The notes under the pieces: model-generated
What the model saw: only the letters and a program-made list of their open reading frames with translations
Told to the model about the DNA's origin: nothing
The model's database searches: none
Position numbers and translations under genes: made by a program
Shown: piece after piece, positions 22,747 through 41,149 of the stretch
Layout: each line of letters starts with the position of its first letter
How positions within the stretch are numbered: position 1 is the stretch's first letter
Virus record (IMG/VR): IMGVR_UViG_3300010399_000056
Location: 1 to 41,425 of that record
Length of the DNA stretch: 41,425 bases
Strand: one strand, 5' to 3'
Origin: a virus

Positions 22747-22789
22747 TTTCTTGATCCTCCATTCCCGCCGCGGCAATCGCTGCGTCCAT
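22703..22789 (-). CDS. Possible leaderless leader peptide MDAAIAAAGM...
   Basis: A 28-codon frame beginning MDAAIAAAGMEDQENERIPN and ending in NC before TGA. Its ATG lies at, or two bases from, the expected transcription start of promoter P1, so translation would be leaderless. The other promoter copy encodes MDAAIGAAGM in the same place. The start belongs to the duplicated segment, which may explain the similarity without function. Expression is unproven. Confidence 0.35.
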   Translation of the reverse strand: MDAAIAAAGMEDQENERIPNQQDQERNC

Positions 22790-22835
22790 GTACCGAACTA
22801 TACCACAAATAAAAACTTGTACAAGTATTTTATTT
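22764..22835 (-). repeat. 72-bp duplicated promoter segment, copy 1
   Basis: Matches 27160-27231 with one mismatch (G at 22773, C at 27169). It spans the end of the helicase gene, the operator palindrome, the promoter and the first codons of a leader frame. The two copies are 4396 bp apart in direct orientation. Confidence 0.92.
22797..22826 (-). promoter_or_regulatory. Leftward early promoter P1 with operator on its -35
   Basis: Read leftward: TTGTAC (-35, 22824-22819), 16 bases, TATAGT (-10, 22802-22797). The -35 is embedded in the perfect palindrome ACTTGTACAAGT (22815-22826), so a bound repressor would exclude RNA polymerase. It drives the cassette down to the 21460 terminator. Confidence 0.82.
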
Positions 22836-27140: not shown

Positions 27141-27159
27141 GATGTCTTGCCCTTTCATC

Positions 27160-27231
27160 CCCGCCGCGCCAATCGCTGCGTCCATGTACCGAACTATACC
27201 ACAAATAAAAACTTGTACAAGTATTTTATTT
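27160..27231 (-). repeat. 72-bp duplicated promoter segment, copy 2
   Basis: Matches 22764-22835 with one mismatch. It begins with the stop codon of the DNA polymerase gene, as copy 1 begins with that of the helicase. Both carry operator, promoter and first codons of a leader frame. Confidence 0.92.
27193..27222 (-). promoter_or_regulatory. Leftward early promoter P2 with operator on its -35
   Basis: Same as P1: TTGTAC, 16 bases, TATAGT (27198-27193), with the palindrome ACTTGTACAAGT at 27211-27222 covering the -35. It re-initiates leftward transcription after the polymerase gene. Confidence 0.82.
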
Positions 27232-29620
27232 AATCCTTGCGGTAGCGATCTGCCTCAAAGCCAGCCGCAGCCAGCGGCAAGCCGGTCGCCCAGTCCGGCA
27301 CGCGCGCCATGAGCGCGGCCAGGTGCTCCGGGTTCCAATCCGGACTATCCGGGGCCTCGCAAATTATTTCGTCGTGCACAGTGAGGGTGATCTCGTAACC
27401 CTGGGCCTCGATTTCGTGCATGTTGGCTGCCATCACGTCGCGCGCGATTGCCTGGCAAATGTTTTCACAAATCATGCCCCCGTATGTGTGGATGCGCTCC
27501 CACTTCCGGGTGTATTGATTCATGCCCATGTACGAAATCGAGGTGCGGCCGCTGGCCGGCGCTTCCTCTTCCAGCTCGGCCTCTGCCTCGTGCTCGTTCT
27601 TGACCTTCTTTTTCTTCTCGGGCACCAGGGCTGGGCCGGGGTAGCACAGCGCGCGACCGGACGGCAGCACGATGCGCAGCCAGGCGCCATCACGTCGAAC
27701 CCGCACCTTGCCGCACTGGATCGTCACACCGGGGTTGGTGATGGCTTCGCGCACACTGACGTCGAGATCTTTCCAGAATTGTTTAACGTTGGCGTGGGCG
27801 TCACGCCAGCCCAGCACGAACGCTTCGCACACCAGCCACGCGCGCTCGCTCAGCCCGGTCAGTTTCAACGGGTTACGGCCGTGCTTCTGATGCCATTCCA
27901 GCATGATGCGAGAGCGGCCCATCACCTCGCCGGGGATCGCGCGGTGGGCCTTCTCGGCCATGTCCTCCAGGTCGATGCCGTAGGTCGCGGCACCGGTCAT
28001 GTACGCGCCCACCCCGCCCTCGTATCCAAGCATCAGCTCCTGCACCTTGCCGATCTGGCGCTGGTCTTTGGACACGTCTGATGGCGAAACGCCAAACGAC
28101 TTGGCGTAAGACAGCTTGTACAGGTCCGGACCGCGCCGCACGGGCTCGTCTTTGGCGTCCAGCTCCAACTCCGGCGCGGCGCCGGCTAGGCAAGCCTCGT
28201 AGTAATCCGGCCCCCGCATCCAGCTGCCGTTCTCCAGCATGAGGGTGTCGAACTCGGCGAACGCTTTCAGCTTCCATTGCTCGCCAGCCACCCAGGCTAA
28301 CACCCGGCCCTCGATGTTCGACAGGTCGGCCACCACCAGTTTGCGGCCGGGCGGCGCCACGATGCACCCCCGGATGGTGGAGCTGGTCAGCTTCATGACG
28401 TTATCGAACAGCAGATCGGCGTAGCCGCCTTTCAGGGCTTCAATGCCCTCGGTAATCTGCGGTGCCGGCAGCAGCCCGCGCGAGGGCAGGTTCTGCGGCT
28501 GGAACAGGCGCCCCGCCCACCTCCCGGTGCGGCTGGCGCCACAGAACTGCAGCAGCCCGCGCAAGCGGCTGTCGGCGCTGGTGCAACGGATCAGCACCCG
28601 GTATTTGCTGGTGCTGGTGGTGGACGCCTGGAGCCGGACGCGCAGTAGCTCTTTCAAGCCCTCGGGGATATCCGGGTCAGCGATACGCCGCTCCAGCGTG
28701 TCCTTTTTCATGTCGGGCAGGTCCACGCCGTACTCGGCCAGCAGGTACTCCAGCAGCTTGTCGCGCTGGGTGGCCGACTCAATGCCCTCGCCCGTCTCTG
28801 GATCGTAACCGGTCATCTGCTGGGCCTTCTCGCGCAGGACGATCTGCGCGGCGTCGACGGCGTTCACCGCGCATTCGGCCAGCTCCAGGTCGATCATGGC
28901 GCCGCGGTCGTTGATCAGCTGGTCAAGCTGCCACAGTGCCAGCTCCGCGCCGCGGTAATTCCACATCGGCATGATCTTGCTGGCCGCGCGCATGGCCACG
29001 ATGTCCTGGCCGGCATAGATCAGGAACTTGTGCCACTCAGCTGGGTGCGTGTCGCGCGTAGCGCGGCCGGCCCACGTCGCCGCGGCGGCCTCTTTCGCTG
29101 CCTTGTAGTCGGCCAGCTTCTCGCCGCCGGCGGTATCGCGCTTGCGGAACTTGAAAGCCTGGGGTTTGCAAAAAAGCTGGATCAATGCCTTGCCCGCTTT
29201 GTCCTTCGCCTTGTCCTCGGGGAGCTTAAGCGCCATGCACATTTGTTCCAGCTTGCCGGGCAGGCCGTGCGCCATGGCCTGCACCATGGTATCGCGCCAG
29301 CGGTGCAATGGGATTTTTAGTCCGGCCACGCGTTCCACGGTGCGGTCAAAACGGGAATTCTGAGCCCACACCTCGCCATCGCCGTTGCGCAGCTCGTCGT
29401 CAATCGCTTCGACATATTCGGCCGGCGCCAGCACCAAGTCGTCGTCGTCCACCAGCAGCCAGTCCTCACCGCCGGGCGTCAGGTCGCGCACCAGGATAGG
29501 GCCATCGCCCAGCGCCAACGCGCGGATCATGATTTCCACACCTTCGCTATAGCGGTCCACCCCGTTGGTGATCTGGAAGGGAGAAAAGGTTTCGTCGTCA
29601 AGCCAAACGCGGGTCGTCAT
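27230..29620 (-). CDS. Family A DNA polymerase
   Basis: Replicative polymerase of 796 residues. An N-terminal 3'-5' exonuclease is recognisable from LDDETFS (D-x-E, residues 8-10), NSRFDRTVERV and YAGQDIVAM. The polymerase has motif A (VVADLSNIEGRVLAW, near residue 440), an O-helix region KVQELMLGYEGGVGAY (motif B), and motif C TVHDEIICEAP near the C terminus. Acidic-basic insertion KKKKVKNEHEAEAELEEEAP lies between motifs B and C and is probably a surface loop. The start ATG overlaps the upstream stop. It is transcribed leftward from P3. Confidence 0.96.
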   Translation of the reverse strand: MTTRVWLDDETFSPFQITNGVDRYSEGVEIMIRALALGDGPILVRDLTPGGEDWLLVDDDDLVLAPAEYVEAIDDELRNGDGEVWAQNSRFDRTVERVAGLKIPLHRWRDTMVQAMAHGLPGKLEQMCMALKLPEDKAKDKAGKALIQLFCKPQAFKFRKRDTAGGEKLADYKAAKEAAAATWAGRATRDTHPAEWHKFLIYAGQDIVAMRAASKIMPMWNYRGAELALWQLDQLINDRGAMIDLELAECAVNAVDAAQIVLREKAQQMTGYDPETGEGIESATQRDKLLEYLLAEYGVDLPDMKKDTLERRIADPDIPEGLKELLRVRLQASTTSTSKYRVLIRCTSADSRLRGLLQFCGASRTGRWAGRLFQPQNLPSRGLLPAPQITEGIEALKGGYADLLFDNVMKLTSSTIRGCIVAPPGRKLVVADLSNIEGRVLAWVAGEQWKLKAFAEFDTLMLENGSWMRGPDYYEACLAGAAPELELDAKDEPVRRGPDLYKLSYAKSFGVSPSDVSKDQRQIGKVQELMLGYEGGVGAYMTGAATYGIDLEDMAEKAHRAIPGEVMGRSRIMLEWHQKHGRNPLKLTGLSERAWLVCEAFVLGWRDAHANVKQFWKDLDVSVREAITNPGVTIQCGKVRVRRDGAWLRIVLPSGRALCYPGPALVPEKKKKVKNEHEAEAELEEEAPASGRTSISYMGMNQYTRKWERIHTYGGMICENICQAIARDVMAANMHEIEAQGYEITLTVHDEIICEAPDSPDWNPEHLAALMARVPDWATGLPLAAAGFEADRYRKD

Positions 29621-34270: not shown

Positions 34271-34316
34271 GCTTGTACAAGTTGACTTTTCCGCGCATAC
34301 TCCCGCTTGTACAACC
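34271..34316 (+). promoter_or_regulatory. Rightward promoter P4 with two operators
   Basis: TTGTAC (34273-34278), 17 bases, CATACT (34296-34301). Operators GCTTGTACAAGT at 34271-34282 cover the -35, and GCTTGTACAAC at 34305-34315 lies over the expected transcription start. It drives the Cro-like gene, implying strong autoregulation. Confidence 0.75.
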
Positions 34317-36318: not shown

Positions 36319-36347
36319 AACTTGTACAAGTTTTGCCGGGGTACAAT
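36319..36347 (+). promoter_or_regulatory. Rightward promoter P5 with operator
   Basis: AACTTGTACAAGTT (36319-36332) is a perfect 14-bp palindrome. TACAAT at 36342-36347 is a good -10. The TTGTAC -35-like hexamer is only 14 bases away, so the exact -35 is unclear. A start near 36354 would place the 5' end of the RNA at the beginning of the structured leader. Confidence 0.7.
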
Positions 36348-36353
36348 TCCCGC

Positions 36354-36459
36354 AGCCAAACCTTTACAAACAGTATGCCCCGGTGGGGCGCTTCGCATCC
36401 CGGTACTGGCCGGGAAGGTTTGGCGACCGCGAAGCGCTCCACCGGGGCATTTTTATTTT
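36354..36459 (+). ncRNA. Structured RNA leader, copy 1 (new family with 40614-40722)
   Basis: Begins at the predicted P5 start. 5' strand GCCAAACC (36355-36362) is exactly complementary to GGTTTGGC (36417-36424). The outer stem pairs 36375-36396 with 36429-36450: 22 pairs with one G-U (36387:36438). Inner hairpin A is CCCGG/CCGGG (36399-36403, 36410-36414), then AA, then hairpin B GGTT/GACC (36417-36420, 36425-36428) directly against the outer stem. A TTTTTATTTT tract follows, then GGAG six bases before the methyltransferase TTG. The 5' strand would compete with or pseudoknot to hairpin B. Transcription attenuator, antitermination signal or small RNA are all possible. Confidence 0.8.
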
Positions 36460-36469
36460 GGAGTGCCAA

Positions 36470-37945
36470 TTGATTGACATTACTTTCGGCGGGGTCTGCA
36501 GCGGCATATCGGCCCCTGCTGTCGCCTGGCATGTGCTGGGCTGGCGGGCCGTGTGGGAGGCCGAGATAGAGGACTTCCCGTCCAAGGTGCTCGCGCACCA
36601 TTACCCCCAAGTGCCGAACCTGGGCGACATGACCAAGATCGCCGCCATGGTGCGCGCGCGCCAAGTCGCCGCGCCCGACGTGCTGGTGGGCGGCACCCCT
36701 TGCCAGGCCTTCTCTGTGGCGGGCCTTCGTGAATCGCTGGACGACGCGCGCGGCCAGCTTACCCTTGCTTATGTGGAGCTTGCTGATGAAATCGATCGCG
36801 TCCGAATTGCCGATGGCGAACCTGAATGTATTATCGTCTGGGAAAACGTCCCCGGCGTCCTCAACACCAAAGACAATGCCTTCGGCTGCTTCCTTGCCGG
36901 CCTTGCCGGCGAAGATTGCGCACTCGTCCCTCCAGGGGGAAAATGGCCGAACGCTGGTTGTGTGTATGGACCCAAAAGGACAGTCGCGTGGCGGGTCACA
37001 GATGCCCAATATTTCGATGTGGCCCAACGACGCGCGCGTGTGTTCGTTGTCGCAAGTGCTCGTGACGGGTTTGATCCCGCAGAGGTACTTTTTGAGTTCG
37101 ACGGCGTGCGCCGGGATACTCCGCCGAGCCGCGAGCCGGGGCAAGAAACTGCCGGCACCCTTACAGGCAGCCTTGGCCGCCGTGGCGGGCAGCCAGATTG
37201 CGGCAGCACTCCCGGACTGCTCCAGCCAGTCGGAAGACTGGGCGGATCTGATCTGATCTGCATGGCTCACGGGCAGGGTGGCGCGGAGATAAGATTCGAC
37301 TCGGCGCCGACACTGACATGTAATCACGAGGCGCCGATAGCCGCTTATTCTGTGGCACTGCGCGGCCGCGAAGGTGGCGCGACTGCCGAACTGGGTGACG
37401 ATTTGGCCAACTGCCTGCGCGCCAGCGGCGGCGGCGGGGACAAACCGCATGTGCTGGCACCGGTGTGCATCCAGAACGCCACGCGCGGCAAAGACCAGAA
37501 CGGCCTTGGCGTCAGTGAGCCGGGCGCGCCCATGTACACCCTGGATCAGGGCTCACAGCACGGCGTGGCCTATGCTTTCGACAGCCGTCAGGAGTGTGTC
37601 AGCAGTCCGCACGTGTTCGGCGCGCTTGGCTCGTCCAGCCCGCAGGCGCAGGCCGTGGCCACCGAGTGGGAGCTGGTGGGCGGCTGGGCGGTGCGCCGCC
37701 TGATGCCGATCGAGTGCGAGCGCCTGCAGGCCTTCCCAGACAACTACACCTTGATCCCGGTGAAGAAGGCGAAGAAGCGCAGCAAAATGTACGACTACGC
37801 CGAGATTGACGGGCAACTGTGGCAACTCGCTGCCGACGGCCCGCGCTACAAAGCCCTGGGCAATTCCATGTGCGTCTTCAATATGCGCTGGATCGGCCAG
37901 CGCATCCACAACCACCTGACAAACCCATACGGGGACTTGATCTAA
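36470..37945 (+). CDS. DNA (cytosine-5) methyltransferase
   Basis: A 491-residue C5 methylase. Start TTG 36470 has GGAG six bases upstream and places motif I at the very N terminus, as is usual: IDITFGGVCSGISAP. Motif IV is GGTPCQAFSVAG with the catalytic Cys78, motif VI is ENVPGVL, motif VIII is QRRARVFVVA, and motif IX/X is CERLQAFPDNYT followed by YKALGNSMCVFNMRWIGQRI. The target-recognition region between VIII and IX is long (about 200 residues) and Gly/Thr-rich. It probably shields phage DNA from restriction. It is expressed from P5 through the structured leader and coupled to the primase-helicase by TAATG. Confidence 0.95.
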   Translation: MIDITFGGVCSGISAPAVAWHVLGWRAVWEAEIEDFPSKVLAHHYPQVPNLGDMTKIAAMVRARQVAAPDVLVGGTPCQAFSVAGLRESLDDARGQLTLAYVELADEIDRVRIADGEPECIIVWENVPGVLNTKDNAFGCFLAGLAGEDCALVPPGGKWPNAGCVYGPKRTVAWRVTDAQYFDVAQRRARVFVVASARDGFDPAEVLFEFDGVRRDTPPSREPGQETAGTLTGSLGRRGGQPDCGSTPGLLQPVGRLGGSDLICMAHGQGGAEIRFDSAPTLTCNHEAPIAAYSVALRGREGGATAELGDDLANCLRASGGGGDKPHVLAPVCIQNATRGKDQNGLGVSEPGAPMYTLDQGSQHGVAYAFDSRQECVSSPHVFGALGSSSPQAQAVATEWELVGGWAVRRLMPIECERLQAFPDNYTLIPVKKAKKRSKMYDYAEIDGQLWQLAADGPRYKALGNSMCVFNMRWIGQRIHNHLTNPYGDLI

Positions 37946-40062
37946 TGGCCACACCGCAAACCCTCCCTACCCTCCTGCCCGTCACCGTCGACGGCATCCC
38001 CGCCAGCATGCTCGACACCCCCCGCTGGGCGCCCTGGCGCGCCATGTGGAACGACAAGAAGCAGAAGTACGAGAAAATCCCGCACCGCTCCGACAAGCCG
38101 CAGTATGGCCTGTCCAGCCAGACCACGCGCGGCTGGTCCTCCTTCCACGACGCCATGCGCGCTTACCAGCGCCAGCCAGACAAGTTCGCTGGTGTTGGCT
38201 ACCTCATGACCGGCGCCCACGGCCTGGTGGCGGTGGATCTTGACCACTGCGTGAAGGATGGCGAGATTGCCCCCTGGGCCGCCGAGGTGGTGGCCAAGCT
38301 GGACAGTTACACCGAGGTGAGCCCGTCGGGCAATGGCCTGCGCATTATGCTGGAAGGCGAGATAGAGCGCGATTGGACCAACCACGAGCGCGGCATCGAG
38401 GTGTATGGCGGCCTGGACGCCCGGTTCGTGACGATCACCGGGGCCAAGGTTGAGGGCAGCTCGCCGCGGGTGAGGAAGCCACGCCCAGGTGCTATGGACG
38501 AGATCACCGCCCGCTACCGCAAGGCCAAGACTTCGGCCCAGGTGCAGGACTTGCACCTGCCGCCGCTGCTGGGCGACGACGAGCTGCCGGACCTGGACGA
38601 TATCGACTTGCCCCCGCACGCCAAGAATTTCCTGGTCGACGGCCCGGGCCCGGCCGATGACCGATCGCGGCTGATGTTCGCCACCGCCATCGCGCTGCGG
38701 CAGTCCGGACTGTCCCACCAGCAAATCCTGTCGATCATGGAAGCTAACGAGCATTTCATGGAAGCGGCGATGGACCACCGCAAGCAGGATTACGACAAGA
38801 CCCTGCGCTATCTGTGGGACCACCATTGCAAGGCGGGGGTGGCGCGCGCCGAGGAGTTGCGACAGCTGGACCTTGCGCAGTTCGATGACATGGACCTGTC
38901 CGAAGGCGTGCAGGATGAACAGGAAGGGGCTGCCATGCGTGATTCGACACCAGACCGGGGGCAGAGTGTGGCCGACGACTTCGAGGCCTTGGAGGACGAT
39001 TTTAGCGACTTGCTGAGCGCACCCCCGCCCAAGCCGGTCAAACTGCCCCGATTCACCCCGCTACCGGCCGCCACGTTCATGCAACGCAAGCCGGGCAGCT
39101 GGATCATCAAGGGGGTGTTGCCCAAGGCTGGGCTGGTGCTGGTGTACGGCGACAGCGGCGCCGGCAAGACCTTCCTGGTGCTGGACCTGGTGGGCGCGGT
39201 GGCGCGTGGTGCCGACTGGCGCGAGCATAAGGTAAAGCGGGGCCGCGTGGTGTACGTGGTGGCCGAGGGCGCCAGCGGGTTCCAGAAGCGGCTCGCGGCC
39301 TATTGCCAGTTCAACGGCATCGACCCCGAAGACCTGGATTTGTTGGTGATTCCGGACGTACCGAACCTGATCGACAAGGGCCACATGAAGGAACTGATCC
39401 CCGCGCTCAAGAAGGCCGGCCCGGTGGCGGTGGTGGTGATCGACACCTATGCCCGCGCGATGGCCGGCGCCAATGAGAACGACGCCAAGGACACCGGCCA
39501 GGCGGTGGCCCACTGCGACCTGATCCACCGAACCACCGGAGCACTGGTGATGCTGGTCCACCACAGCGGCAAGGATGGCAGCAAGGGCGCACGGGGCAGT
39601 GGTGCGCTCAGGGCAGCGGCCGACGCCGAGCTGGAGGTGGTGCAGCTGCGCGACTATCGGGTGGCCACCGTCACCAAGATGAAGGATGGTGAGGACGGCA
39701 AAGAATATGCGTTCAAATTGCAGGAGGTGGTGCTGGGGCAGGACGACGAGGGCGACCCTATCACCTCCTGTATCACCGAGGCGCGCGCCACCCAGCCACG
39801 CCATTTGGTGGTCCAGCGGCGCCCACTCACCGAGCGCCAACAGATGGTGATGGCACTACTGCAGGACGCCCAGGACTTGACCGGCGAGGGGTTGCACTTC
39901 GCGGTGCTCAAACAACAGGCCGTGGAACGCATTCCTTTTGATGGAAACAGCCACCGGGACAACCGCGGGCGCGATGTGACTAGGGCAATTGAGTCGCTGG
40001 TGGATGGTCAATATGTAGAAAAATGCGAAGATGGCGTGTTAAAAATTGCAGATAGCATTTAA
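37945..40062 (+). CDS. Primase-polymerase/helicase (AEP primase with RepA-type ATPase)
   Basis: Replication initiator of 705 residues. N-terminal prim-pol domain: FAGVGYLMTGAHGLVAVDLDHC (catalytic D-x-D, residues 98-100), then SPSGNGLRIMLEG (metal and nucleotide site). A helical PriCT-type region follows (RSRLMFATAIALRQSGLSHQQILSIM). The linker near residues 340-360 carries DDFEALEDDFSDLL. The C-terminal domain is a RecA/RepA-like ATPase: GDSGAGKT near residue 405, VVVIDTYARAMAG (Walker B region), and LVMLVHHSGKDGSKGARGSGALRAAAD. A winged-helix-like end follows. The repeat cluster after its stop is a likely binding target. Confidence 0.92.
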   Translation: MATPQTLPTLLPVTVDGIPASMLDTPRWAPWRAMWNDKKQKYEKIPHRSDKPQYGLSSQTTRGWSSFHDAMRAYQRQPDKFAGVGYLMTGAHGLVAVDLDHCVKDGEIAPWAAEVVAKLDSYTEVSPSGNGLRIMLEGEIERDWTNHERGIEVYGGLDARFVTITGAKVEGSSPRVRKPRPGAMDEITARYRKAKTSAQVQDLHLPPLLGDDELPDLDDIDLPPHAKNFLVDGPGPADDRSRLMFATAIALRQSGLSHQQILSIMEANEHFMEAAMDHRKQDYDKTLRYLWDHHCKAGVARAEELRQLDLAQFDDMDLSEGVQDEQEGAAMRDSTPDRGQSVADDFEALEDDFSDLLSAPPPKPVKLPRFTPLPAATFMQRKPGSWIIKGVLPKAGLVLVYGDSGAGKTFLVLDLVGAVARGADWREHKVKRGRVVYVVAEGASGFQKRLAAYCQFNGIDPEDLDLLVIPDVPNLIDKGHMKELIPALKKAGPVAVVVIDTYARAMAGANENDAKDTGQAVAHCDLIHRTTGALVMLVHHSGKDGSKGARGSGALRAAADAELEVVQLRDYRVATVTKMKDGEDGKEYAFKLQEVVLGQDDEGDPITSCITEARATQPRHLVVQRRPLTERQQMVMALLQDAQDLTGEGLHFAVLKQQAVERIPFDGNSHRDNRGRDVTRAIESLVDGQYVEKCEDGVLKIADSI

Positions 40063-40066
40063 GTAG

Positions 40067-40200
40067 TTGCCTTCCATTGCCTTCCATTTGCCTTCCAATG
40101 GAGTAAGTGGAAGGCGCCATAACTCCAAATTTGCCTTCCTTCCACTTCCAACCCCCTTTAGGGGGTGGAAGGATGGAAGGCAAAGATGGAAGGCAAGGAC
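40067..40200 (+). repeat. Iteron-like cluster of TTGCCTTCCA repeats, candidate replication origin
   Basis: This noncoding gap (40063-40265) holds TTGCCTTCCA at 40067, 40077 and 40088 (10-11 bp apart), a partial copy at 40131, and the inverse TGGAAGGCAA at 40174 and 40187, with further TGGAAGG half copies at 40108 and 40166. CCCCC-TTTA-GGGGG lies in the centre and AT-rich sequence follows. Phased direct and inverted repeats beside a RepA-type helicase gene are what an initiator-bound origin looks like. Origin function is inferred. Confidence 0.65.
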
Positions 40201-40265: not shown

Positions 40266-40604
40266 ATGGCTTGGTCAAAGGAAAGCAGGCAAAGTCGGGG
40301 GTACGGGCGGGACTGGGAGATTGCCCGGGCCCAGGTGGTCAAGCGCGACAAGGGGTTGTGCCAAGCGTGTTTGGCCAAAGGCCGGGTGACGATCGGCCGA
40401 GAGGTGGACCACCGGGTGCCCAAGGCCGAATGCGCGCGGCTCAGGTGGAGCCAGGCCAAGACCGATCACCCCGACAACCTGTGGTTGCTGTGCACGCCCT
40501 GCCACGACCACAAGACGGCCCAGGACAACGGACGGGCGTACCGGCCCAAGGTGCAGATTGGCGAGGATGGGTGGCCGCTTGACAACCCGGATAAGCTGGG
40601 CTAA
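40266..40604 (+). CDS. HNH endonuclease adjacent to the packaging genes
   Basis: A 112-residue protein. ATG 40266 follows AGAGGG; an open extension upstream crosses the repeat cluster and is not coding. HNH core: LCQACLAKG, EVDHRVPKAECARLRWSQAKTDHPDNLWLLCTPCHDHKT, with two C-x2-C pairs for structural zinc and the DH, N, and H residues of the active site. HNH proteins encoded next to terminase in HK97-like phages help the large terminase cut at cos sites. Here it lies about 870 bp before terS if the genome is circular. Confidence 0.92.
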   Translation: MAWSKESRQSRGYGRDWEIARAQVVKRDKGLCQACLAKGRVTIGREVDHRVPKAECARLRWSQAKTDHPDNLWLLCTPCHDHKTAQDNGRAYRPKVQIGEDGWPLDNPDKLG

Positions 40605-40607
40605 GCT
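40579..40607 (+). promoter_or_regulatory. Promoter P6 for the second structured leader
   Basis: TTGACA (40579-40584) is a perfect -35, followed by 17 bases and TAAGCT (40602-40607), which keeps the three most conserved -10 positions. It lies inside the 3' end of the HNH gene and has no operator palindrome. Transcription would start near 40614. Confidence 0.7.
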
Positions 40608-40613
40608 TCGTTC

Positions 40614-40722
40614 CATCGGTGGGCAAACATCGACGCGCAAGGGCTTTGCCTTGTGCTCTCAACGGTTCGCCGTAAGGTTGTTTGCCCAACCGAGAGCACG
40701 AGGCAAAGCCCTTTTTCGTTTT
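40614..40722 (+). ncRNA. Structured RNA leader, copy 2
   Basis: Starts just after P6. The 5' strand TGGGCAAACA (40620-40629) is exactly complementary to TGTTTGCCCA (40679-40688). The outer stem pairs 40639-40660 with 40692-40713: 22 pairs with one G-U (40652:40700). Inner hairpin A is ACGG-TTCG-CCGT (40662-40673), then AA, then hairpin B GGTTG/CAACC (40676-40680, 40687-40691). TTTTTCGTTTT follows, then GGAG six bases before ATG 40733. Every element and spacing of copy 1 recurs while the stem sequence is unrelated. Confidence 0.82.
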
Positions 40723-40732
40723 GGAGAACAGC

Positions 40733-41149
40733 ATGACCCGAATCATCGTCGCACGGTACATGGAGCCGACCCAGGCCGAGAAGCTGAACACGTTGAAGCA
40801 GCGCGTACAGGAGCAGCTGCCCGAAGGCTACCTGGTGGTCGTCGTGCCTCACGGCGTTGAGCTGTTCGAGCTGAGCGCAAAGGAACCGATCTACCACACC
40901 GAGCTGGCCGAGCCGCCAGCGAACACCACCGAGTCGCCTTCGGGCCGCGTGGTTGAGCACGTGGACGTGCCGGACGACGATGCCCCAATCCGTTTCGTGT
41001 GGATGACCCGGGCCGAATGCACGGACGAGCAACGCGCAATGGGGATTGGGCATGACGACACAGGCCCGATCACGAAGTGGGCTATCCCGGTCGATCAGCT
41101 CAGCGAAGAAGACCAGGTGCGCTACGCTGACCGCGTGAGGGAGCTGTGA
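40733..41149 (+). CDS. Protein of unknown function after the second RNA leader
   Basis: A 138-residue acidic protein. ATG 40733 has GGAG six bases upstream. It has an N-terminal alpha-beta domain: TRIIVARYMEPTQAEKLNTLKQRVQEQLPEGYLVVVVPHGVELFEL. The C-terminal part is acidic and probably flexible (EHVDVPDDDAPIRFVWMTRAE and beyond). The gene lies between HNH and the terminase if the ends join, and it heads the transcript starting at P6. Its stop overlaps the next gene. No family recognised. Confidence 0.65.
   Translation: MTRIIVARYMEPTQAEKLNTLKQRVQEQLPEGYLVVVVPHGVELFELSAKEPIYHTELAEPPANTTESPSGRVVEHVDVPDDDAPIRFVWMTRAECTDEQRAMGIGHDDTGPITKWAIPVDQLSEEDQVRYADRVREL

Follow-up and report, generated by a model that had tools for sequence, protein, structure and literature searches.

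The window, by which we mean the whole 41,425-nt stretch of DNA analysed here, is a virus record that has no close annotated relatives. In it a structured leader of about 105 nt follows a promoter; we read this leader, with a probability of roughly 55%, as a promoter-proximal attenuator in which a pseudoknot that would form first gates an intrinsic terminator. The parts of this leader (40614–40722), referred to below as copy 2, are as follows.

40579–40607, + strand: promoter of copy 2 (type II), TTGACA-N17-TAAGCT, read from the sequence as a −35 hexamer TTGACA (40579–40584), 17 bp and a −10 hexamer TAAGCT (40602–40607) ending 12 nt 5′ of the S1 5′ strand
40620–40629, + strand: 5′ strand of S1, TGGGCAAACA, complementary at 10 of 10 positions to 40679–40688
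40630–40638, + strand: linker L1 (9 nt)
40639–40660, + strand: 5′ arm of the terminator stem S2 (pairing, comparative alignment)
40662–40673, + strand: inner hairpin H3, ACGG-UUCG-CCGU (ACGG-GAGA-CCGU in the sister phage L003)
40676–40691, + strand: hairpin B, GGTTG-TTTGCC-CAACC, mutually exclusive with S1
40679–40688, + strand: 3′ strand of S1, TGTTTGCCCA, within the S2 loop (complementarity, alignment)
40692–40713, + strand: 3′ arm of S2 (pairing, alignment)
40714–40722, + strand: U-tract TTTCGTTTT, directly 3′ of S2 and followed by GGAG and an ATG at 40733
40733–41149, + strand: first gene 3′ of copy 2, encoding 138 aa; its L003 homologue precedes terS and terL

The promoter, the 22-bp stem and the U-tract before 40733 that the initial annotation had described are all present, the stem with zero mismatches and one G-U pair, the promoter with a poor −10 that matches the consensus in three of six letters; the corresponding L003 promoter, TTGACA-17-TAGGAT, has 10 of 12 consensus letters. 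Since the S1 3′ strand lies within the loop of S2, S1, which pairs the 5′ leader strand with that loop, is a pseudoknot helix, and the complete pairing of its two strands agrees with the earlier proposal that the 5′ strand excludes hairpin B. H3 sits between the S2 5′ arm and the S1 3′ strand, and in the truncated fold the end of L1 and the start of S2 make up a local hairpin, GCGCAAGG/CCTTGTGC. In L003 the S1 5′ strand is TGTGGTCGCA instead of TGGGCAAACA, the partner strand having changed along with it, and hairpin B is kept as GGTTG-CGACCA-CAACC. The 138-aa protein has no Pfam or PHROG match.

The other leader of this kind in the window, copy 1 (36355–36459), lies before a methyltransferase gene and comprises the following features.

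36320–36331, + strand: palindrome ACTTGTACAAGT in the copy 1 promoter
36342–36347, + strand: −10 hexamer TACAAT, 7 nt 5′ of the S1 5′ strand
36355–36364, + strand: 5′ strand of S1 of copy 1 (type I), GCCAAACCTT (alignment)
36371–36375, + strand: 5′ strand of P4, CAGTA, made of the end of L1 plus the first nucleotide of S2
36375–36396, + strand: 5′ arm of S2 (pairing, alignment)
36399–36414, + strand: inner hairpin H3, CCCGG-TACTGG-CCGGG, whose loop (36404–36408) is the 3′ strand of P4
36415–36424, + strand: 3′ strand of S1, AAGGTTTGGC, sharing GGT with hairpin B (GGT-TTGGCG-ACC)
36429–36450, + strand: 3′ arm of S2 (pairing, alignment)
36451–36459, + strand: U-tract TTTTATTTT, then GGAG and a TTG start codon at 36470
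36470–37945, + strand: C5 DNA methyltransferase, the first gene 3′ of copy 1

That the two leaders are copies of one RNA, as had been claimed, holds for their architecture, namely the order of elements, the stem length and the U-tract/GGAG tail; it does not hold for the stems, as the S1 and S2 sequences are unrelated. A search for a sequence copy of copy 2 elsewhere in the window gave none, the two leaders being alike in architecture only, and they are the sole structures of this kind in the window.

The surroundings of copy 1 hold repeats of their own. A search of the window for the ACTTGTACAAGT palindrome returned six matches versus 0.5 expected, including exact copies at 22815 and 27211 and a one-mismatch copy at 34271, and the palindrome is likely the operator of a phage repressor. 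Two of the sites (22815–22826 and 27211–27222; the others are 34271–34282 and 36320–36331) fall inside two 87-nt direct repeats, 22749–22835 and 27145–27231, which are 93% identical and seem to be a duplicated promoter module with an apparent minus-strand promoter, operator and gene start. Further along, at 40060–40200, just 3′ of the primase-helicase gene, there are short direct and inverted repeats, TTGCCTTCCA / TGGAAGGCAA; the primase-side clusters of relatives use wholly different units (TCCCACAAATCCCACA, CTACCTCTACC, TACCCGAAATACCCGAA and GTCAAAAGTC), and the cluster in the window resembles an origin of the iteron type whose unit is specific to the phage.

A chance origin of the two leaders is unlikely. 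The fold z-score is −6.8; in 40 dinucleotide-shuffled versions of the window the best combination of stem and U-run scored 15.9, against 21.3 for each real copy; and the S1 helix was equalled in 48 (one copy) and 23 (the other copy) of 20,000 loop shuffles, that is, in 0.1–0.2%. Neither the window nor nine relatives contained a family at the gathering threshold of Rfam 15, and at E ≤ 10 merely sub-threshold, microRNA-like chance matches appeared. With one type-I copy as query, blastn found nothing in annotated phages and only short chance matches in plasmids, and we found no description of this RNA family in the open-access literature. Attenuators and antiterminating leaders are already known; this family is absent from Rfam 15 and appears undescribed in the open-access literature searched.

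Relatives came from TerL and primase scans of viral contigs combined with a pattern scan. The resulting set comprises 16 distinct copies, spread over about 15 phage contigs; alignment-based and TerL scans of the viral contigs yielded relatives, scans with the 138-aa protein alone or the primase alone yielded none, and the last TerL scan added no further distinct copy. A covariance model of the type-I copies, R1, recovers every type-I copy at E < 1e-12 and found a second copy in the L147 phage, outside its training set, at E = 2e-10; on virus records it found the type-I copies and missed the type-II copies of G008 and G009. Among 392 Oxalobacteraceae genomes R1 had no match, and neither did the pattern among 399 Burkholderiales genomes, but in large genomes just the best ten first-look candidates were scored, and these negative results carry little weight. 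Several candidates were set aside: 38 of 52 pattern matches have no stem and score at most 7.6, as compared to at least 15 for real copies, and the repeat clusters beside the primase gene of L004/L069, L044, L123, L126, L133, L144, L073 and L068 (minus strand), which pass a crude scanner, are direct or inverted repeat arrays and not this RNA.

In the sister phage L003 both copies occupy homologous places, and the order there is contiguous: copy 1, methyltransferase, primase, HNH, copy 2, a 150-aa gene, terS and terL, with no +-strand terminator between copy 2 and the terminase genes. This contiguity places copy 2 at the head of the terminase side of the genome, as had been suggested for the case that the genome circularises, when the transcript would continue into terminase. 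In other relatives a promoter is found 3′ of HNH, with no RNA there. Which gene lies 3′ of the element depends on the phage (methyltransferases of two kinds, HD-domain, DUF1376-like and Rha-like genes), and the element is therefore tied to the promoter position and not to a gene. The L003 methyltransferase (L003:977–2190) is apparently of a different kind from that at 36470–37945 of the window, with RNA and primase conserved, which appears to be a gene replacement behind a fixed leader. In L100 about 250 nt of structured-looking non-coding DNA (L100:8600–8850) lies 3′ of HNH and has no Rfam family at the gathering threshold. In L057 (11255–11479) and L059 (13456–13680) a near-identical 74-aa Cys-containing protein, KTCRGCLFQRQFSPVCRR, is encoded directly 5′ of the type-II RNA; it follows a NinG-like gene, which is the position of a Q-like gene in PAJU2, and has no PHROG match.

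In the window, as in L003 and L147, two operon promoters each carry a copy, which raises the question of whether the leader is a processive antiterminator that, once folded, binds RNA polymerase and makes it resist this and later terminators, as put RNA does in phage HK022 through the β′ zinc-binding domain and without the help of proteins; the initial annotation had drawn this comparison from the layout. The put RNA is about 73 nt long, consists of two successive stem-loops, has no terminator of its own and influences RNA polymerase at terminators far downstream (PMC9378689). Both are phage leader RNAs located just past an early promoter, structured from the 5′ end of the transcript (as in HK022 putL) and present twice per genome. 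Furthermore, the compact pseudoknot exceeds what a terminator needs, and, as the initial annotation had claimed for the phage, no N or Q could be recognised as far as window ORFs were compared with PHROGs: no PHROG antiterminator turned up among the 29 tested, several of which are families of unknown function or orphans. The fold is nevertheless a different one, a pseudoknot round an 18–22-bp stem with its own built-in terminator, neither of which put has; the sequences of S1 and S2 vary with hardly any constraint, unlike those of a protein-binding RNA; no clear terminator calling for readthrough was seen further downstream; and R1 searched up to E = 10 gave no match in HK022 (L197). The examination of HK022 and PAJU2 brought up one HK022 site, at 28325–28412 between nun and cI, which scored barely above background and was judged to be chance or operator repeats. 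We therefore do not retain the comparison with put, and consider a put-like action unlikely.

The covariation among copies is, on comparative grounds, the decisive evidence that the structure is real. In a hand-made structural alignment of 15 copies, with rows checked against the loci, S1 is paired in 100% of cells with two-sided changes at all 10 of its positions (three copies with a bulged or shorter S1 left out), S2 is paired in 95% with two-sided changes at 21 of 22 positions, and H3 in 100% with two-sided changes at three of five (15 copies each for S2 and H3). When strands were swapped between copies, pairing fell from 8.4 (own) to 4.9 (crossed) for S1 and from 0.95 to 0.58 for S2, and in both cases none of 20,000 permutations reached the real total; as the permutations keep the column make-up and not the relatedness of the copies, these figures are supportive and not exact probabilities. 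P4, formed by the last 5–7 nt before S2 and the H3 loop, is present in all 11 type-I copies aligned and also, with the unrelated sequence ACGGTA:TACCGT, in L057. Permutation backs it less strongly (5 of 20,000, type I plus L057) because both strands are fairly conserved. No P4 is seen in two type-II copies, copy 2 of the window and that of L003, where H3 has a UUCG or GAGA tetraloop. Hairpin B occurs in 12 of 12 type-I copies, in 3-bp variants GAC/GTC, GGC/GCC and GGT/ACC. Hairpin B and S1 compete for one strand, and the copies that have hairpin B conserve the two alike: a clear case of covariation supporting alternative, competing pairings.

The complete replacement of the copy 2 S1 strands between the window and L003 is also what might be expected of a specificity element, and could point to a dual-function small RNA, in which the terminated, end-protected RNA of about 105 nt would act in trans, for example on the readthrough transcript or on a superinfecting phage. 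A precedent for the layout exists in the prophage Gifsy-1, where IsrK RNA has a promoter, a structured small RNA and a terminator with partial readthrough into phage genes, and activates translation in trans (PMC4825925). The arrangement of promoter, small RNA, terminator and readthrough genes is alike in the two, with no shared fold known. However, in every copy the changing strands can still pair with each other in cis, something that action on a trans target would not demand, and the readthrough genes include the replication and terminase operons, which must be expressed. Such a role seems rather improbable.

The position of the element relative to the promoter is also fixed. The −10 hexamer ends 6–7 nt before S1 in type I and exactly 12 nt before it in the four type-II copies (in L071 and L100 the scorer chose another hexamer, and TATGCT or TATTCT was placed by eye at the expected position), and given this fixed spacing S1 begins at about +1 or +6. 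A helix starting there might lock the 5′ end of the transcript against decay, with the two-turn S2 serving as an RNase III substrate that frees the mRNA. Some phage RNase III sites resemble S2-like stems; S2 has a near-constant 18–22 bp and, in five type-I copies, a 2x2 internal loop. This reading does not account for the T-run found 3′ of S2 in 16 of 16 copies, which RNase III does not need, nor for the tail GGGCTTTTTCTTTT, which is the same in plain terminators located just upstream of several elements in the same phages, and a processing or protection leader is in our judgement a poor candidate. On the downstream side, a start codon follows S2 at 17–27 nt in 15 of the 16 copies, as would suit a leader fold that controls translation of the first gene. 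That such control is the function is very doubtful: the GGAG is sequestered by no helix, the first genes are unrelated between phages, and in L059 about 250 nt separate the element from the start of the next gene, so that translation alone does not explain it.

The preferred reading, attenuation, makes use of both the competing pairings and the terminator. In all 16 copies a G+C-rich stem is followed at once by the U-tract, as in an intrinsic terminator. When the transcript is cut before the S2 3′ arm, the nested minimum free energy (MFE) structure contains S1 in 16 of 16 copies; in the full-length leader it has S2 and no S1, again in every copy, and hairpin B is there as well in 14. In the window copies S2 amounts to about −55 to −65 kcal/mol versus −33 to −37 kcal/mol for the truncated fold, these calculations being blind to pseudoknots and kinetics. 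S2 becomes the MFE structure only once 8–17 nt of its 3′ arm are present. About 14 nt of RNA are still inside RNA polymerase, and allowing for these the takeover by S2 falls near the U-tract. An idealised A-form helix estimate makes P4 and a complete S2 incompatible in 12 of 13 copies tested, with L147 copy 2 as the exception and L070 and L168 marginal. S1 would probably hinder S2 as well, since two turns of the 3′ arm would have to be wound round a strand held within the loop that S1 closes. There are thus two mutually exclusive folds, one of which has the terminator, and the attenuation switch put forward in the initial annotation is well supported by the shared strand and by the change of nested MFE structure in every copy.

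In the mechanism we propose, that of a kinetic attenuator, transcription would start at, or a few nucleotides before, the S1 5′ strand. As the RNA emerges, H3 would fold, the type-I H3 loop would pair with L1 (P4) and the 5′ end would pair 3′ of H3 (S1), so that the S2 5′ arm is tied up within a closed loop or by local hairpins. The S2 3′ arm, once made, would have to invade this S1/P4 fold to form the 18–22-bp terminator hairpin at the U-tract, and hairpin B would take over from S1 in the terminated state. If S1/P4 lasts past the U-tract, the operon would be transcribed; otherwise the RNA of about 105 nt would be released. The trigger could be elongation speed, NusA, or a phage or host factor, or there could be none, with a set readthrough fraction. 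In this model S2 and the U-tract would terminate and S1/P4 would be the antiterminator, and the direction of regulation and any trigger are to be read in the same conditional sense. Some points weigh against it: S2 is far more stable at equilibrium, so that termination may simply be the usual outcome; the type-II copies without P4, copy 2 among them, might let S1 and S2 coexist as a true pseudoknot; and stems of 18–22 bp are longer than usual terminators.

The closest known parallel is the fluoride (crcB) riboswitch of Bacillus cereus, in which an early pseudoknot prevents an intrinsic terminator that arises by strand displacement (PMC11077080). The phage leader would likewise fold a pseudoknot first during transcription and hold off the downstream terminator while it lasts. 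It differs from the riboswitch in being a phage element without an Rfam match or a known ligand, in carrying the 5′ arm of its terminator inside the pseudoknot loop with a stem of 18–22 bp, and in standing at the 5′ end of the transcript in several copies per genome. The late leader of phage lambda (pR′-tR′, 6S RNA) also places a late promoter, a short leader and a terminator before the late genes, as copy 2 does. The lambda leader depends on protein Q, of which none was recognised here; the present leader, moreover, has a competing fold built in, and copy 1 heads an early operon.

Lambdoid phages switch operons by antitermination proteins or, in HK022, by put RNA. In the phages described here, with no antitermination protein recognised among the ORFs tested, a strongly conserved RNA design, unlike put, starts the replication operon, and in two phages it precedes terminase. 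If our proposal is true, the design would attenuate without a protein, the order of folding deciding the outcome. It is also conceivable, though we hold this to be a tentative reading and on balance not a likely one, that the element represents a new class of antitermination RNA in phages, its pseudoknot at the 5′ end blocking a built-in terminator by topology: with the loop closed by S1, the S2 3′ arm could not wind its two turns before RNA polymerase has passed. If so, early and late operons of one phage group would share a protein-free, sequence-independent timer. Almost any stem sequence is tolerated, which makes the design testable and re-engineerable with simple compensatory mutants.
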